From NCBI GenBank assembly GCA_003248075.1, contig QJYK01000022.1, positions 1 to 64,000 on the forward strand: 64,000 nt of DNA, in the 5' to 3' direction. A program made the translations under genes and the position numbers. The notes under the pieces were generated by a model. It was given only the letters and a program-made list of their open reading frames with translations. It had not been told where the DNA came from and did no database searches. The DNA is from Gemmatimonadota bacterium. Lineage in GTDB: Bacteria; Gemmatimonadota; Gemmatimonadetes; Longimicrobiales; Gaopeijiaceae. Each line of letters opens with the position of its first letter. Position 1 is the first letter of the stretch. Shown one piece after another: positions 3,723-49,520 of the stretch.

Positions 3723-6155
3723 TCACTCGCCCCGCAGCGCCTCCGTCGGCGCGACCGACGCCGCGCGTCGCGCGGGAACCGTGGCCGACGCGAGCACCAC
3801 GACGGCGAGCATCACGGCGACGCTCACCAGGGCCACGGGGTCCACGGGGCTGAGGCCGAGCAGGAGGAAACGGAGGAGCCGCCCGACCCCGAGCGCGCCC
3901 ACTGCCCCCAGCACGAGCCCAGGCAACGCCAACGCCAAGGTGCCCCGGACCACCAGGCCCAGCACGCGCCTCCGGGTGGCCCCCAACGCGAGGCGAACAC
4001 CGATCTCGCGCGTGCGCTGCGTGACCGATACGGCGACCACCCCGTAGATGCCGATCCCCGCCAGGACCAGCGCGAGGGTTCCGAGCGCGGACGTGATCCA
4101 GGCGGCCACGCGCTGCGGAAGGATCCCGATCGACGTGTAGCGCTCCAGGGAGAGAACGGGCGTCAACGCAAGGGTGCCGTCACCGTCGAGGATCGCCCCC
4201 CGAAGCGCCGGAGCCACGGCCGCGATGCCCCCCGGCGCCCGAAGGATGATCTGGGAGGTGGGACGGTACGACTGCCAGAGCGGCACGTACACGAACGGCT
4301 TTGCGGCCTCCGTGATGACCTGGTTCTTCACGTCCTCCACGACGCCAACGATCGTGCTGCTCGTCTCCTGCCGACCGGTCAGCCCGAGGCGCACGCGACG
4401 CCCCAGCGCGCTCTCGCCGGGCCAGACGCGCTCTGCGAACGTACGGCTGACGACGATCGACGGCTCCGATCCGGGCACCTCGTCGTCGGAGAAGTCGCGC
4501 CCCTGCAGGATGGGGATGCGCAGCGCGTCGAAGTATCCGGGCGACACATAGTTGAAGTCGATCGCCAGGCGCTCGTCCTCGGACCACCCCTCGGGGCGAG
4601 CGCCCGTGCCGGACGAGCTCAGGTCGAGGGGCAGATCGGTCGCCAGCGCGGCCCCTTCCGAGAAGGGGAGTGCCCGCAGGCGATCGAGAAGGGCCCGTTG
4701 GAAGACGGCCCCGTCCGACGCACCGTATCCTTCGACCGACAGGTCCACCATGGTCATGTAGGCGTCTGTCGGGTCGAAGCCCGATTCGACCTCGGCCGCG
4801 CGCTGCAACGAGCGGACGAACAGCCCGGCCGCGACCAGCAGCACCAGGGAAAGCCCGACCTGTCCCCCCACGAAGGCACGCCGCATCCATCCGACGCGCC
4901 CGCGTCCACTCCCGTCGTCCTTGAGGGAAGGCACCAGCTCCAACCGGGTGGACTGGATGGCGGGAAGCAGGCCGAAGACCAGCCCCGTGGCCAGCGTCGT
5001 TCCCAGAGCGAAGAGCAGGACGCGCACGTCGGGGGCGAGATCCACGTGGATGGGGATCGGAAAGGGGAGGCGCTGCAACGGCGCGAGTCCCACGAGCCAC
5101 ATACCCGATGCCGCACCCAATGCGCCCGCGAGGGTGAAGACCACGAGCGCCTCGGTCACGAGCTGCCTCACCAGCCTACCCCTTCCCGATCCCAGCGCGA
5201 GGCGCACCGCGATCTCGCGCTCGCGCGTCGCCGCGCGAGCCAGGAACATCCCGGCGACGTTGGCGCACGTGACCAGCAGGATGAGGATCGCCATTCCGGT
5301 GAGCGCTCCCAGGAAGCCGGTAACGCCGCCGCGTACCCCGCCGGGCACGAGGCCGAGGCGGACGACCCGGGCGCCCCGCCGGGCGTAGCGGTCCGGGAAC
5401 TGCTCCCGCAAGGCGACGAAGACACCGGCCACCTGCTCCGACGCGACCTCGATCGACACCCCCGACGCGAGGCGCCCGACCGCCATGTGCCAGCTCGCGT
5501 TGCGCGACGAAAACTCGTCGAGTCCGTTGTCGACCAGCGGAATGGCCCGCATGGGGAGATAGACGTCCGGCTGGAACCCGATCGTGTGCCCCCTGAACTC
5601 CTCGGGCGCGATCCCCACCACCGTGACCGGCACGCGGTTGATCATCACCGTGGTGCCGATCACGTCGTCCCCCCCGAGGCGGTCGCGCCAGAAGGCGTGG
5701 CTGAGGACGACCACGGCGGGGCGGCTCCCGGCCGCGTCCTCTTCCTCCGTGAAGAACCGGCCGGCGGCGGGGCTCACGCGCATCACCTGGAAGTACGCCG
5801 GCGACACGTGCATGCCCGTGATTCGCTCGCCCTCGCTCCCGCGGCTGAGGCTCAGGATCTCGAAGGTGTATGCGGCGATGCTCTCGAGAGCCGGCACCCC
5901 GGCCTTCATGTCCTCGTACTCGGGGTAGGAGAACGTGTCGAAGCCCCGACCTTCGTCACTGCGTCCGAGCTCCACGACCCGCTCCGGCTCTGAGACTCCC
6001 GGGACGGGACGGAGGAGAACGGCGCTCACGACGCCGAAGATCGCCGTGTTTGCGGCGATCCCGACGGCGAGCGACGCGGCCGCGACGAGGGCGAAGACCG
6101 GCCGGCGCCGGATCTGGCGAAGGGCCTGACGGACGTCGGCGAGGAGCGCGTCCAC
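3723..6155 (-). CDS. ADOP-type MacB/FtsX ABC transporter permease
   Basis: An 810-residue protein beginning MDALLADVRQALRQIRRRP, with a TM helix at about 22-42, a MacB periplasmic core, FtsX domain 1 (TCANVAGMFLARAATRERE), a second core, and FtsX domain 2 (TREIGVRLALGATRRRV), ending SVAPTEALRGE. Size and layout match the ADOP family. It is the first gene of a minus-strand run that continues with the small secreted protein and a second ADOP permease, so the three may be one transcript. No PadR regulator or ATPase lies beside it. The 220 bases upstream are shared with the divergent aminotransferase gene and should hold promoters for both. Substrate unknown. Confidence 0.9.
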   Translation of the reverse strand: MDALLADVRQALRQIRRRPVFALVAAASLAVGIAANTAIFGVVSAVLLRPVPGVSEPERVVELGRSDEGRGFDTFSYPEYEDMKAGVPALESIAAYTFEILSLSRGSEGERITGMHVSPAYFQVMRVSPAAGRFFTEEEDAAGSRPAVVVLSHAFWRDRLGGDDVIGTTVMINRVPVTVVGIAPEEFRGHTIGFQPDVYLPMRAIPLVDNGLDEFSSRNASWHMAVGRLASGVSIEVASEQVAGVFVALREQFPDRYARRGARVVRLGLVPGGVRGGVTGFLGALTGMAILILLVTCANVAGMFLARAATREREIAVRLALGSGRGRLVRQLVTEALVVFTLAGALGAASGMWLVGLAPLQRLPFPIPIHVDLAPDVRVLLFALGTTLATGLVFGLLPAIQSTRLELVPSLKDDGSGRGRVGWMRRAFVGGQVGLSLVLLVAAGLFVRSLQRAAEVESGFDPTDAYMTMVDLSVEGYGASDGAVFQRALLDRLRALPFSEGAALATDLPLDLSSSGTGARPEGWSEDERLAIDFNYVSPGYFDALRIPILQGRDFSDDEVPGSEPSIVVSRTFAERVWPGESALGRRVRLGLTGRQETSSTIVGVVEDVKNQVITEAAKPFVYVPLWQSYRPTSQIILRAPGGIAAVAPALRGAILDGDGTLALTPVLSLERYTSIGILPQRVAAWITSALGTLALVLAGIGIYGVVAVSVTQRTREIGVRLALGATRRRVLGLVVRGTLALALPGLVLGAVGALGVGRLLRFLLLGLSPVDPVALVSVAVMLAVVVLASATVPARRAASVAPTEALRGE

Positions 6156-44281: not shown

Positions 44282-44956
44282 TCAGGCGGGCCGACCCTCG
44301 CGGTGCAACGCGTGCGTATAGAGCTCGTAGGCCTCCGGATGCGCGAGGAAGTCGGAAACCCAGATCTCGAACGGGGGCAGCGGCAGCAGGTTCTCGATTC
44401 GCTCAACGACCATCATCGCGAACTGAATGCGGTCCGAAGGCCGGAAGTCGATTCGCTCGCCTTCGAGAATGCGGTCGACGGCTTCCACGAAATCGTCGGG
44501 CTCGACCAGGGTGACCAGATGGGCCACCTGGTCGAGTCGATACGACGCGTACAACGACCTCAGGGCCGCGAGCTCCGTCCGATCCGGCGTCCGTCCGCTC
44601 CAACGTTCCGACAGCTCACGGGCGTTCTCCACGAGGAGATCGCAGAACTGACGGCGAAGGCGCGGAGATCCAGAGACCGCCCGACGGTTCTTGTGAAGCG
44701 CGGAGGACAGAAGCCCGCCGAGGAGCGGTCGGCCGAGCCCACGGGCCTTCTGATCGATCTCGGCCTCGGAGTCCTCGAGGAAGATGTCCGCCGTCCGCAC
44801 CTCGTCATCGTCGGACCCGCCGCTACCCGGTCGGAACGAGAAGCACCCCTTCCAGCGGCCGGCCTCGCCACGATACGTGACGAGGAAGCAGGCCCACTGC
44901 TCCTCCTCGTGATCGAGGAACGTGACGGAGCGTTTTCGCTCGGTGAGCGGGTCCAT
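44282..44956 (-). CDS. LPPFEIW-domain protein A: beta domain then helical domain
   Basis: A 224-residue protein, no family recognised. Residues 11-86 form a beta-type domain with W21-x-A...Y28-x-x-x-x-G33-R-W35-K-G37...F41 and a closing acidic helix that ends LLSSAL. Residues 132-215 form a helical domain starting LYASYRLDQVAHL and ending LPPFEIW (193-199), SDFLAHPEAY. The same two domains occur in protein B (46332-46931) in reverse order, and the second alone in protein C (47634-47957). The pattern is clearest in the Leu-Pro-Pro-Phe-Glu-x-Trp...Asp...His-Pro...Tyr core. It has no membrane or signal segment. It is divergent from protein D, with a 491-base spacer rich in hairpins. Confidence 0.65.
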   Translation of the reverse strand: MDPLTERKRSVTFLDHEEEQWACFLVTYRGEAGRWKGCFSFRPGSGGSDDDEVRTADIFLEDSEAEIDQKARGLGRPLLGGLLSSALHKNRRAVSGSPRLRRQFCDLLVENARELSERWSGRTPDRTELAALRSLYASYRLDQVAHLVTLVEPDDFVEAVDRILEGERIDFRPSDRIQFAMMVVERIENLLPLPPFEIWVSDFLAHPEAYELYTHALHREGRPA

Positions 44957-45081
44957 GGGCTACCGGCGTGCGTGAGGGAACGGCGGCCGCGTTTGTCGCA
45001 CAGGTCACCGAACGAACGGCCCGGCCGCCGCAAGATGACCGCACCCGGTCTGGGGAGCAAGGCGCGTGCCCGACACCGTCC

Positions 45082-45111
45082 TTGCTCGCTCCGTAAACAG
45101 ATTGTTATCGT
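45082..45111 (+). promoter_or_regulatory. Candidate promoter for the structured intergenic transcript
   Basis: TTGCTC (45082-45087), 18 bases, TATCGT (45106-45111), in an A+T-richer patch. The predicted start is near 45118, the first base of the hairpin described next. Confidence 0.4.
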
Positions 45112-45117
45112 ATCACT

Positions 45118-45210
45118 GGGCCCATAAATGGGCCCCGGACAAGGCTGTCCTCCCGGGGCTCACGTGATACCTGGGGGGGACGATCACCCGGCCGCGGCCG
45201 GGTTTCTTTT
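45118..45210 (+). ncRNA. Putative structured small RNA with intrinsic terminator
   Basis: Starting right after a candidate promoter, the segment folds as successive hairpins: GGGCCCAT/ATGGGCCC (45118-45135), a second stem around CCCCGGACA...TGTCC...CCGGGG, GTGAT/ATCAC (near 45164-45187), and the perfect 16-base palindrome at 45187-45202 followed by TTTCTTTT. The end has the form of a Rho-independent terminator although no protein gene lies upstream on this strand. It does not resemble 4.5S, 6S, tmRNA or a riboswitch that I recognise. It could be a small RNA of about 93 bases, or the leader of a terminated transcript for protein D. Confidence 0.4.
45187..45210 (+). terminator. Rho-independent terminator of the putative small RNA
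   Basis: Sixteen-base perfect palindrome (CCCGGCCG/CGGCCGGG) then TTTCTTTT at 45203-45210. Confidence 0.65.
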
Positions 45211-45271
45211 CCGGAAAGCCGAGATCGGGACGGGCGTTCCGGTCGCGGCTCCAACATGCACACCACGAAAA

Positions 45272-45303
45272 GGAGCGTCCCCGGCTGGCACCGGAGACGC
45301 TCC
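45272..45303 (+). promoter_or_regulatory. Second hairpin in the spacer before protein D
   Basis: A 13-base stem with one C-A mismatch (GGAGCGTCCCCGG and CCGGAGACGCTCC) closing a 6-base loop. It lies 145 bases before the start of protein D and may belong to its leader. Confidence 0.45.
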
Positions 45304-45309
45304 TCGACA

Positions 45310-45335
45310 CGGGCTGGCGGCCCGCTTGGTCTTTT
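45310..45335 (+). terminator. Small terminator-like hairpin before protein D
   Basis: CGGGC (45310-45314), 5-base loop, GCCCG (45320-45324), then CTTGGTCTTTTT. A weak attenuator-type structure. Confidence 0.4.
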
Positions 45336-45447
45336 TGGCTCGAGTCCAAGCTACCCGGGCCGTCCGGCGAGTGTCAAGGTGTAGGTATGTGCGTTGACCC
45401 CGCCCGCAGTCGGGACCTGCCAGGGCCCCGGGTGCTGGAGAACGAGG

Positions 45448-46332
45448 ATGAGTCCGAGCGTGCTGACGGACACCCGGCCGGAGGCCATGGGGGACGTCCC
45501 CGGCGTCTGCGAGGTCCCGTTGACCCGCGCCGTGGTGCAGTACCGGGACGTGCACGAGATGGACGCGGCGGGTGGCCGCATCGAGGATATCGGCCTCGGG
45601 CTCGTTGTGGACGGTCGCTACGCGGCGTCGGCGGAAGCCGTCGATCTGGGCAGCGGGCGCCTCAAGCTCCTCGACCTGAGCACGGAGCTGGTGGTCCTGG
45701 ACTGGGTCTACGAGCCCACCCTGAGGCACGTGACGTCGCTGGTCGCGGCGGCCGGCGCGAACTCCGGTGAGGAGGCGCTGAGGCGGTACGTCTTTCGTCT
45801 CGGGCTCCGGGTTCTGGAGCGCGTCGGATTCGGCCCGCTGACCCGCCCCAGCGTCCTACGGATCGGCTTCCGCGATATCTGTCGGGACATGGACCTGCAC
45901 GAGGGCACGTCGATCCGGATCGTTCTGGGTCCCGGTCGCCTCACCCGGATCCACCTCGACTACGACTCGGCGGCGCTCATCTTCCGTACGGCGTTTCTCG
46001 ACCCGGACGCGGCCCTGGAGCGCGCGCTCGTCGAAGCGTTCGACGGCGCCGAGGTGCGACGCCTGGTGCCGGCCGCCCCGACCGACGCGCTCTCCTACCA
46101 GGTGAGGTTCCCGCTCCCGGAGAGCCTCGAGGACGCGCGTCGGGACCTCGCGGCGATGCGCAAGGGAATCGCGTCCGTCGTGGCCCGCTTCGAGCCGAAG
46201 CGCTTCGAGGCGCTGGGTCGCGTGCTGGAAACGTTCGGCACCCGGGAGACGCTTGCCGCGTTGCGCGCCCACGAACCCTCGGTCCGGCCCGTCAGGGTGA
46301 CCGCTACCCCCGGGTCGAAGGTGATTCACTGA
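45448..46332 (+). CDS. Unknown protein D, coupled to the LPPF-domain protein B
   Basis: A 294-residue protein, not recognised. The first half (about 20-140) alternates strands such as RIEDIGLGLVVDGRYAASAEAVDLGSG and KLLDLSTELVVLDWVYEP. The second half has helices (EEALRRYVFRLGLRVLERVGFG) and a segment LEDARRDLAAMRKGIASVVARFEPKRFEALG. No signal, membrane or zinc motif. The ATG at 45448 has GGAG seven bases upstream. Its TGA overlaps the ATG of protein B by one base (TGATG), so it is translated with B, which implies a shared role. It stands in the middle of the LPPFEVW cluster; no function is proposed. Confidence 0.65.
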   Translation: MSPSVLTDTRPEAMGDVPGVCEVPLTRAVVQYRDVHEMDAAGGRIEDIGLGLVVDGRYAASAEAVDLGSGRLKLLDLSTELVVLDWVYEPTLRHVTSLVAAAGANSGEEALRRYVFRLGLRVLERVGFGPLTRPSVLRIGFRDICRDMDLHEGTSIRIVLGPGRLTRIHLDYDSAALIFRTAFLDPDAALERALVEAFDGAEVRRLVPAAPTDALSYQVRFPLPESLEDARRDLAAMRKGIASVVARFEPKRFEALGRVLETFGTRETLAALRAHEPSVRPVRVTATPGSKVIH

Positions 46333-46931
46333 TGCCGGCGCAGCTCGGGGTCGGTGACGGCATACGTGGCGGCTCCCGCCGTGCGGACACCATCGGGGAG
46401 GATTGGCTGGATCGGTATCGATCCTACAGGCGGCGTCAAGCCATGCGCTTGATCCACATGCTCCCCAAGGGCGCTGTTCGGCCGCTCTATCGGCGCGCGC
46501 GCGACTTCGCCCAGAGGGCCGGGGTTTCCGAATCCGAGTTGTCGGACGACCCGTTGGGCGTGCTCGTGTGGTTCTGTCAGAAACTGCTTCCTCTCCCACC
46601 CTTCGACGTGTGGCTGACCGACGTCGAGAGCCATCCCGGGGCCTACTTCCTGGACATGGCAGACTCCGTGGATCAGCCGACTCCCGAGGCGCCGGCGACG
46701 GTGGAGTCGCGCCCCTTCGCATGCGGCGGTCGGAGCTGGACCGCGCACCTCCGCTCCTACCAGGACTCGGGGCTTTGGCGGGGTTACATCGCGTTCACCG
46801 GCGACAGCGACGCACGCGTGCATCGAACGGCTCCCGTCTTCTGCGAGCAGGATCCCTCGGAGCTTCGTGACCGGTTCCTCTCGTTCGAGCCAGCCGCGCT
46901 CCAGGCCTTCCTCCGATCCGCGCTTCCCTGA
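46332..46931 (+). CDS. LPPFDVW-domain protein B: helical domain then beta domain
   Basis: A 199-residue protein, no known family. Residues 24-110 are the helical domain (WLDRYRSYRRRQAMRL ... LPPFDVW at 88-94, DVESHPGAY). Residues 126-199 are the beta domain (SWTAHLRSYQDSGLWRGYIAFTG ... RSALP). These match the two domains of protein A (44282-44956), where the beta domain comes first, so the order is swapped. The beta domain keeps W-x-A-x-L-x-x-Y...G-x-W-R-G...F and ends in the same LRSAL/LSSAL motif. Translationally coupled to protein D. No membrane or secretion signal, so it is likely cytoplasmic. Confidence 0.65.
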   Translation: MPAQLGVGDGIRGGSRRADTIGEDWLDRYRSYRRRQAMRLIHMLPKGAVRPLYRRARDFAQRAGVSESELSDDPLGVLVWFCQKLLPLPPFDVWLTDVESHPGAYFLDMADSVDQPTPEAPATVESRPFACGGRSWTAHLRSYQDSGLWRGYIAFTGDSDARVHRTAPVFCEQDPSELRDRFLSFEPAALQAFLRSALP

Positions 46932-46933
46932 GT

Positions 46934-46953
46934 CGATTTTTCCCAAAAAATCG
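46934..46953. terminator. A+T-type hairpin after protein B
   Basis: CGATTTTT (46934-46941) and AAAAATCG (46946-46953) form an 8-bp stem around a 4-base loop just after the stop of protein B. It is unusual for this G+C-rich sequence; it could be a weak terminator or protein-binding site. Confidence 0.35.
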
Positions 46954-47080
46954 GCAACGGTCCGCGTGGGCGCACCGGCCTGACCCCGCCGCGCAAGCTC
47001 ATGCGTGTTCAGGGTTTTGAGCGTTGTGTCCTCGGTTGCGGTATGCTGCGATCCACGCTGGGAACAACTGGATTTGATTC

Positions 47081-47108
47081 TTCCGTCGTTTTTGTAAGTT
47101 GTTATAAT
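47081..47108 (+). promoter_or_regulatory. A+T-rich candidate promoter upstream of the small RHH-like gene
   Basis: The region 46932-47310 holds no gene I can support. Its central part (47070-47130) is markedly A+T-rich and contains a consensus TATAAT at 47103-47108 with TTCCGT at 47081-47086 (16-base spacer). A transcript from about 47115 would reach the gene at 47311. Confidence 0.4.
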
Positions 47109-47310
47109 ACAAACACTTCCGTATAACCTGCGGATCTGACGAAGGGCCCGATGCGGGGGTTGCGTGGGCCGCGAACCCAGTGTATCATGGTCCCACTTCG
47201 AGGAGGCCGGACTCCCCTCGCCGTGGTCTCGCGCTCGGCTGACCGAGCCGCTCGCGGCGCCCCAAAAAGCGTGATTTCTTCACCCTTCGACCGTTGGCCG
47301 AGGTGCGCCC

Positions 47311-47520
47311 ATGTGGGATACGTGCTCCGTTCAGCTCACAGTGCAGCTGCCACGGGACATCGCAGCTCAGGCGGAGGAGGTCCAGAAGGCCGATCCCGAC
47401 TTTCTGAGCCGGGTCGTGCTGTACGGGCTGACGAGGCGCTCCATCTATCGCCACCTGCGCGGCCCGGAGAGACAGGCGGGCGATGCCGAGACGGAAGAGT
47501 CGGTCCAACCCGGTCGCTGA
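47311..47520 (+). CDS. Small protein with a ribbon-helix-helix-like N-terminus
   Basis: A 69-residue protein. The first strand-and-helices LTVQLPRDIAAQAEEVQKADPDFLSRVVLYGLTRRSIYRHL resembles the RHH fold of CopG/antitoxin-type regulators: a beta strand with Leu-Pro, then two helices. A short charged tail follows. The similarity is a shape match, not a family assignment, so a DNA-binding or antitoxin role is a guess. CGAGGTG sits a few bases before the ATG. It is followed, 113 bases later, by LPPFEVW protein C, with no toxin-like gene beside it. Confidence 0.45.
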   Translation: MWDTCSVQLTVQLPRDIAAQAEEVQKADPDFLSRVVLYGLTRRSIYRHLRGPERQAGDAETEESVQPGR

Positions 47521-47633
47521 GGCTTGCGCGACCCTCCCCTCCGGATCATAGGTTTGGCGCGACCGAGACCCCCGGACAGGAATCGACGAGGGCAATTCCG
47601 AGGGGTCTTTCTACGTCCATTGGGAGGACCGGC

Positions 47634-47957
47634 GTGGACGCAGGCCGACCTGGGAGTGAGCCCGTCGAAATCCTGCGCGCGAAGTATCTCGACTACTGTT
47701 CGGCGCAGGTCGCCGATCTACTTCTCTACCTGAGTCCGGACGAGATCTATCTCCTCGCCCAGCGAGCCCACCGCGAGAAGGGCGGCGCGGGCCAACTGTC
47801 CTACATCGAAATGGTTCAGATCGCGACGGACTGGCTCTCGGCGCGCGTTGCACTCCCGCCCTTCGAGGTGTGGGTCGACGACTATCGCGAGCACCCCGAC
47901 CGGTACGCCGAGTACTTCATGGGACTCTGGGAATCGGAGACCGACTCCTCGGAGTGA
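47634..47957 (+). CDS. LPPFEVW-domain protein C: stand-alone helical domain
   Basis: A 107-residue protein consisting only of the helical domain shared with A and B: YLDYCSAQVADLLLYLSPDEIYLLAQRAHREK at 18-49, then LPPFEVW (74-80), VDDYREHPDRYAEY (81-94). The GTG at 47634 is favoured by GGGAGG six bases upstream; an open extension to 47151 contains no ribosome site and reads as non-coding. It lies 33 bases from the stop of ssb, convergent. The common motif with A and B makes chance resemblance unlikely. Function unknown. Confidence 0.7.
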   Translation: MDAGRPGSEPVEILRAKYLDYCSAQVADLLLYLSPDEIYLLAQRAHREKGGAGQLSYIEMVQIATDWLSARVALPPFEVWVDDYREHPDRYAEYFMGLWESETDSSE

Positions 47958-49386: not shown

Positions 49387-49520
49387 ACCGCTCCTCCGGG
49401 CGCCGCGCCCGTCGGTCCGGACGCCACGGAGAACGACCGACCGAAAGTCATTGAAGGCCAAGAAGTTCGGGCTCCTCCTCCGGGGTGGTCGGAGGGGGGT
49501 CGTCAGGTTAAATTTCCGGG

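Follow-up and report, generated by a model that had tools for sequence, protein, structure and literature searches.

In a 64,000-nucleotide stretch of contig QJYK01000022.1 from a Gemmatimonadota bacterium (the window), five genes encoding proteins that we call A, D, B, R, and C form a cluster, and the strongest clue to its function is a palindrome in the 380-bp gap before R that is also found at type IV pilin promoters. As judged from the aligned promoters, R-C and the σ54 promoters of type IV pilin genes are preceded by one and the same palindromic element; since the same palindrome stands at R and at pilin promoters, R-C probably shares with pilin a regulator, which is probably not R itself. 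The wider explanation that we favor, that the cluster is a Gemmatimonadota-specific family of two protein modules built around an R-C core, co-regulated with pilin and acting in pilus or surface control, falls a little short of being probable. Gemmatimonadota are common in soil and water, and very few species have been cultured (PMC10581226); our literature searches brought up no study on this cluster or on pilus regulation in the phylum. The central elements in the window are the following:

47061..47074, plus strand: conserved element GGAACAnnTGnnTT, seen in 46 R promoters and located 32–35 bp upstream of the palindrome in 45 of them
47094..47120, strand-neutral: 27-bp palindrome, also at type IV pilin promoters (motif learnt on the pilin promoters of families lacking R)
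47160..47188, plus strand: putative σ70-type promoter of R, TTGCGT-N17-TATCAT (TTGCNN-N16..18-TANNNT in 49/50 R promoters)
47311..47520, plus strand: protein R, 69 residues, ribbon-helix-helix (RHH)-like by sequence pattern (39-sequence alignment)
47634..47957, plus strand: protein C, a lone helical module with a GTG start (43-sequence alignment)

The nearly constant distance between B and R (∼374–393 bp) led us to align the regions upstream of R, 55 in all. The alignment reveals a fixed order of elements: GGAACAnnTGnnTT, a gap of 32–35 bp, the 27-bp palindrome GTAAGTCGTTGT-N3-ACAACGACTTAC, a second gap of 37–40 bp (mostly 38–39 bp), and a σ70-type TTGC-N17-TA promoter. The σ70-type box is present in 49 of 50 R promoters as against 0.2 in shuffled sequences, and a σ54 −24/−12 element was not found at R-C (6/50 R promoters versus 3 in shuffles). 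When the whole window is scanned with the motif derived from pilin promoters of families without R, the palindrome at the R promoter is the best match (19.7 bits, the next being 14.3). A palindrome-like match before recF (49443–49469, 14.3 bits; also in L063, L083, L085, and L087, where L denotes a locus and, likewise below, f a family, g a genus, and G a genome) was not above chance over loci and was set aside. A structured RNA in the gap between B and R was likewise rejected, since no Rfam match in the window reached the gathering level and those at the locus were at chance level only; no consensus RNA fold was obtained for the R leader.

On the pilin side, pilin homologues were gathered and N_methyl and PilA-type models applied. 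In the families that have R, a matrix trained on R promoters gives 10 bits or more for 21/55 pilin upstream regions, as compared with 0.3% of shuffles, and in G001, a genus-mate of the window's genome, the pilin site scores 17.1. In the pilin promoters of f3–f5, the palindrome recurs in the same position, and R was not found in nearly all sampled genomes of these families. A motif search carried out de novo on 37 pilin promoters of R-less families returned the same palindrome, GTAAgtCgTTGc...gCAAcGacTTAC, with a log-likelihood ratio of 245 (39–49 on shuffled sets), and with this motif, 50 of the 55 R promoters exceed the 99.8% level of shuffled controls, almost all of the sites there lying 203–219 bp upstream of R. 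It should be noted that R-less status was tested for f4–f6 and part of f3, that the f3 training genomes G048, G050, G054, and G058, which fall outside this tested set, have weak C-like matches, such that a few training promoters may stem from genomes with R, and that the clean R-less training cases come mostly from f4 and f5.

The spacing between palindrome and promoter is fixed at both kinds of gene. At pilin genes, the palindrome is followed by a σ54 GG-N10-GC element in 21/21 and 29/33 sites, mostly at a distance of 15–19 bp, versus 38–39 bp to the σ70-type box at R. Relative to the start site, the two placements would thus differ by ∼30 bp, that is, by three helical turns, and the same face of the DNA may be used at both promoters. 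In f5, a palindrome with a σ54 element is found just downstream of a gene for a methyltransferase-like protein that carries the helical module, ahead of a small open reading frame (MVDIAMQAELEQEPVGIVISRGSR...; L217 5964, L218 5889, and L221 4362), which is likely to be another member of the pilin regulon. In one f5 genome, G067, the pilin-like genes number thirteen, and most of them are dispersed across distinct sites.

Control of pilA by σ54 and PilR is well known (PMC6058289; the sections cited here do not describe the present cluster), and the pilin genes studied here, with σ54-like promoters and a palindrome at a fixed distance upstream that could suit an enhancer-binding protein, resemble the PilS-PilR system as set out there. 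The difference is that here the same palindrome also serves the σ70-type promoter of R-C, at 38–39 rather than 15–19 bp. A second precedent, for RHH control of type IV pili, is AmrZ of Pseudomonas, a small RHH protein linked with type IV pilus expression (PMC3325190 and PMC3946381, in whose cited sections the cluster is not described). The RHH-like pattern in R and the location of the palindrome upstream of R's own promoter would fit a scheme in which R, as an AmrZ-like repressor or activator, uses the palindrome both to regulate its own gene and to control the pilin promoter directly. However, the palindrome is kept in the same position in the pilin promoters of f3, f4, and f5, families in which R was missing from nearly all sampled genomes, making R unlikely as a necessary binder; we therefore rejected R as the palindrome's factor, and regard autoregulation combined with pilin control by R as very improbable. 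Moreover, AmrZ, according to the same sections, binds its targets itself, and the structure of its RHH domain has been solved; R, by contrast, has a weak match to Arc and an operon partner, C, and the palindrome at pilin promoters exists in families without R.

Alternatively, the shared factor might be a global one, with R-C (and A, B, and D) as effectors or housekeeping partners that are controlled in common with pilin and have another role, for example in cell-envelope growth or division. That the palindrome serves two promoter types, σ54 at pilin and σ70-type at R, is what one expects of a general factor; in addition, the A-D intergenic region lacks the palindrome, and beta modules also end an operon of the MoxR-DUF58-transglutaminase type, described below. 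Against this, sites close to a perfect match are uncommon across whole genomes and gather at R and pilin: a search of 39 whole genomes, allowing up to three mismatches, gave six sites, while the reversed-pattern control gave zero. R promoters account for three of the six; the others are at a type IV pilin promoter, before an amidase-like gene, and at a terminator-like hairpin. The fixed spacing, too, argues for a dedicated circuit, and we consider the global-regulator explanation rather unlikely. The palindrome match in G047, next to a tRNA-like sequence, has the look of a terminator hairpin and was rejected as a regulatory site.

R and C are also the most widely distributed members of the cluster. 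In a sample of 249 Gemmatimonadota genomes, mostly metagenome-assembled, with a match cutoff of E ≤ 0.001, R is found in 87 genomes, with one match per genome, and C in 110, a count that takes in weak cross-family matches; the two are adjacent in nearly all genomes that have both, and they occur in nearly all of f1, part of f2, one f3, f7, f9, and one f4. (The titles of f1-like records vary, Longimicrobiales in some and Gemmatimonadales in others.) D is almost restricted to f1, B is found mainly in f1, strong matches to A are limited to f1 and f2, and most f2 genomes lack D and B. Because genus g26 lacks A but retains D, B, R, and C, genus g12 has R and C only (A, B, and D being absent), and A, B, and D are confined to fewer families, R-C is the core and most widespread unit, to which the narrower A and D-B have been added or from which they have been lost.

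Beyond these counts, a pattern scan of genomes confirmed by tblastn gave 36 loci, nearly all titled Gemmatimonadota or one of its orders. The order in most loci is S21, A (reverse), D, B, R, C, SSB (reverse), often an enoyl-CoA hydratase gene, recF, dciA, and gyrB, and the block S21-A / D-B-R-C / SSB-recF-dciA-gyrB is syntenic in ∼30 named Gemmatimonadota loci. An earlier note on this DNA, made from the letters alone, had raised the conservation of gene order as a question and chance open frames as a possibility: the order is conserved, and the genes are not chance open frames, their orthologues being ∼30–76% identical and syntenic. All five open reading frames were confirmed at the positions given in that note, which had overlooked R-C as the most conserved unit, the presence of both modules in other settings, and the palindrome before R. 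Two records with a typical cluster neighborhood carry labels that look out of place, L064, titled Gammaproteobacteria, with gemmatimonad-like flanks (label probably wrong), and L097, titled Gemmatimonas phototrophica (label doubtful).

The assignment of R itself is tentative. Its sequence pattern in the alignment is suggestive of an RHH protein, its best match to Pfam Arc is weak (E = 0.008, in 2/39 members), and no RHH match was found in the f7 and f9 members or among PDB sequences; the putative strand residues differ between families although the palindrome persists. A small RHH-like gene ahead of a small gene, the two adjacent and with a palindrome before their promoter, could suggest a type II toxin-antitoxin system maintained at one position on the chromosome, with an RHH antitoxin followed by a small toxin. 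Unlike such pairs, R-C is not sporadic or mobile but vertically kept and syntenic across the family; the tail of R is variable, the module that makes up C is reused in larger, multidomain proteins, and C has no homology to a toxin family. Indeed, neither C nor R matched a toxin or antitoxin family, apart from the Arc match of R, and of all the explanations weighed here we give a toxin-antitoxin pair the least probability.

The remaining features of the locus are the following:

44282..44956, minus strand: protein A, with an N-terminal beta module, a linker helix, and a C-terminal helical module (30 columns invariant among 28 aligned sequences; hhalign matches with B and C)
44687..44938, minus strand: beta module of A, residues ∼7–90 (hhalign to the C-terminal module of B, 98.7%, E = 3e-16)
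44306..44581, minus strand: helical module of A, residues ∼126–217 (hhalign to B, 98.9%; to C, 98.0%)
45082..45111, plus strand: promoter-like element of D, TTGCTC-N18-TATCGT, a block conserved in an alignment of 25 A-D intergenic regions, with a putative promoter role
45448..46332, plus strand: protein D, 294 residues (40-sequence alignment), predicted middle and C-terminal order helix-EEE-helix-EE-helix
46332..46931, plus strand: protein B, with an N-terminal helical module and a C-terminal beta module (33-sequence alignment; hhalign); its start overlaps the stop of D
46401..46661, plus strand: helical module of B, residues ∼24–110 (profile-profile comparison)
46692..46928, plus strand: beta module of B, residues ∼121–199 (profile-profile comparison)

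The earlier note had proposed that A, B, and C share a helical module and that a beta module precedes it in A and follows it in B, and both proposals are borne out. In profile-profile comparisons, the helical module common to A, B, and C is recovered with probabilities of 98–98.9% (E values from 2e-13 to 2e-17), and the N-terminal beta module of A matches the C-terminal beta module of B with 98.7% probability; BLASTP gives E values of 2e-8 (helical) and 1e-5 (beta) for A-B, and of 2e-10 for A-C and 8e-6 for B-C. Because the module profiles match and the control pairs (pairs with D, pairs with R, and unlike modules; all <0.5% probability, except one at 4.3%) do not, the swap of domain order between A and B is genuine. 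A resemblance of the helical module to DnaA domain I (E = 0.44) was judged to be noise.

The coupling of B to D that the same note had suggested is probable: the stop of D and the start of B overlap in the window (TGATG), and overlaps recur in five relatives' loci (L073, L075, L077, L080, and L097). The nearness to ssb, by contrast, does not hold up as a functional clue: the SSB gene, a constant neighbor in the window and in relatives, is convergent with C, and ssb therefore lies outside the operon. At the other end, A lies upstream of the gene for ribosomal protein S21, in the same direction on the minus strand. Directly 3′ of the B stop is an A/T palindrome with the consensus ATTTTTTGCAAAAAAT (46932–46955 in the window, and in relatives), which persists even in relatives where B is reduced or missing, and strong terminator-like hairpins are found between A and D (45266–45338, minus strand), in a region with a weak match to Rfam BjrC68, below its cutoff.

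Both modules are also found outside the cluster. Six f7 genomes (G095, G106, G134, G187, G237, and G241) have a gene for a beta module immediately downstream of C; together with the fusions in A and B, this means that the two modules can be joined in either order or encoded apart. Domains that are fused in both orders and that are also encoded by adjacent separate genes are classical evidence of joint action, and the helical and beta modules would accordingly be expected to work together. In f1, a lone beta-module protein of ∼100 residues is encoded by the last gene of an operon of the MoxR-DUF58-transglutaminase type (L208–L213, ∼4800–5300), in which the MoxR ATPase is confirmed by Pfam and the other two genes are, as judged from their sequences, DUF58-like and transglutaminase-like; a MazE/AbrB-like gene is located close to this operon. 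In f4 and f5, finally, a methyltransferase-like protein (Pfam TehB, E = 0.035, and Methyltransf_25, E = 0.041; NCBIfam TehB, E = 5e-7) carries the helical module at its N-terminal end. This recalls TehB-like and other class I S-adenosylmethionine-dependent methyltransferases, from which the window's proteins differ in having no methyltransferase domain. The fusions are located as follows, and an RlmI-like gene is found near those in L219 and L221:

L217 5027–5869, L218 4697–5812, L219 4969–5829, L220 4958–5764, L221 4466–5245: fusions of helical module and methyltransferase-like domain, in families without R-C

The possibility, raised in the earlier note, of a lineage-specific paralog family is correct in that the cluster is indeed a lineage-restricted paralog family. 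A stricter version, in which a plain paralog family has no joint function and R-C/pilin co-regulation is the sole link, could draw on the independent losses of A, D, and B noted above for g26, g12, and most of f2, but the conserved gene order, the D-B overlap, and the modules fused both ways or encoded in adjacent genes tell against it, and we consider it improbable.

Database searches agreed with the earlier impression that A, B, C, and D belong to no known family: nothing was found above threshold in Pfam, NCBIfam, PHROGs, or PADLOC, and A, C, and D had no match among PDB sequences. AlphaFold2 (AF2) models of A (predicted local distance difference test score, pLDDT, 81.6; predicted template modeling score, pTM, 0.58) and D (pLDDT 84.5, pTM 0.80) gave no convincing PDB fold match, those of D being weak at best. 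The class I type III secretion chaperone fold (SpcU, SigE) is among the best matches of D, in keeping with its predicted secondary structure, but with a best E value of 0.022 and a query TM score of at most 0.20, this is no real match. No defense-protein model in PADLOC matched, and the cluster sits in core chromosomal synteny rather than in patchy islands. A replication-origin reading was dropped, as DnaA is encoded on other contigs and the GC skew of the window has no clear origin switch.

Taken together, these observations are compatible with a mechanism in which a putative transcription factor, distinct from R and perhaps of the NtrC/PilR type, turns on or gates pilin and R-C together. R would then be a small protein that binds DNA or serves as an adaptor, and C would be the helical protein dedicated to it. 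Beta modules would dock on helical ones, within a single chain (in cis) in A and B and between chains (in trans) in the f7 pairs of C and a beta-module protein; R-C, plus the larger A and B with the same modules, may act in the control of pilus production or surface behavior. Such biochemical roles for R, C, A, B, and D remain conjectural, and several points weigh against the proposal: the weak RHH assignment of R, with putative strand residues that vary between families; the palindrome-free A-D intergenic region; a recognizable site in fewer than half of the scanned pilin copies; a pilin promoter that runs off the contig end in the window's own genome, such that the link is read in relatives; the R-less families, which keep the same pilin site, so that pilin does not need R; and a shared factor that could be global, in which case the link to the pilus would be incidental.

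We suggest, more tentatively still than co-regulation and pilus or surface control as such, that the cluster could represent a new, phylum-specific type IV pilus control module, composed of two new pairing modules (fused in either order or on separate chains), a small RHH-like partner, and one factor that reads the same palindrome at σ54 and σ70-type promoters. One factor acting at fixed distances on both types of promoter would be unusual, if true. A protein cluster without a database match now has a first testable functional clue, in the form of an exact motif, two promoter architectures, and a conserved R-C operon tied to pilin.

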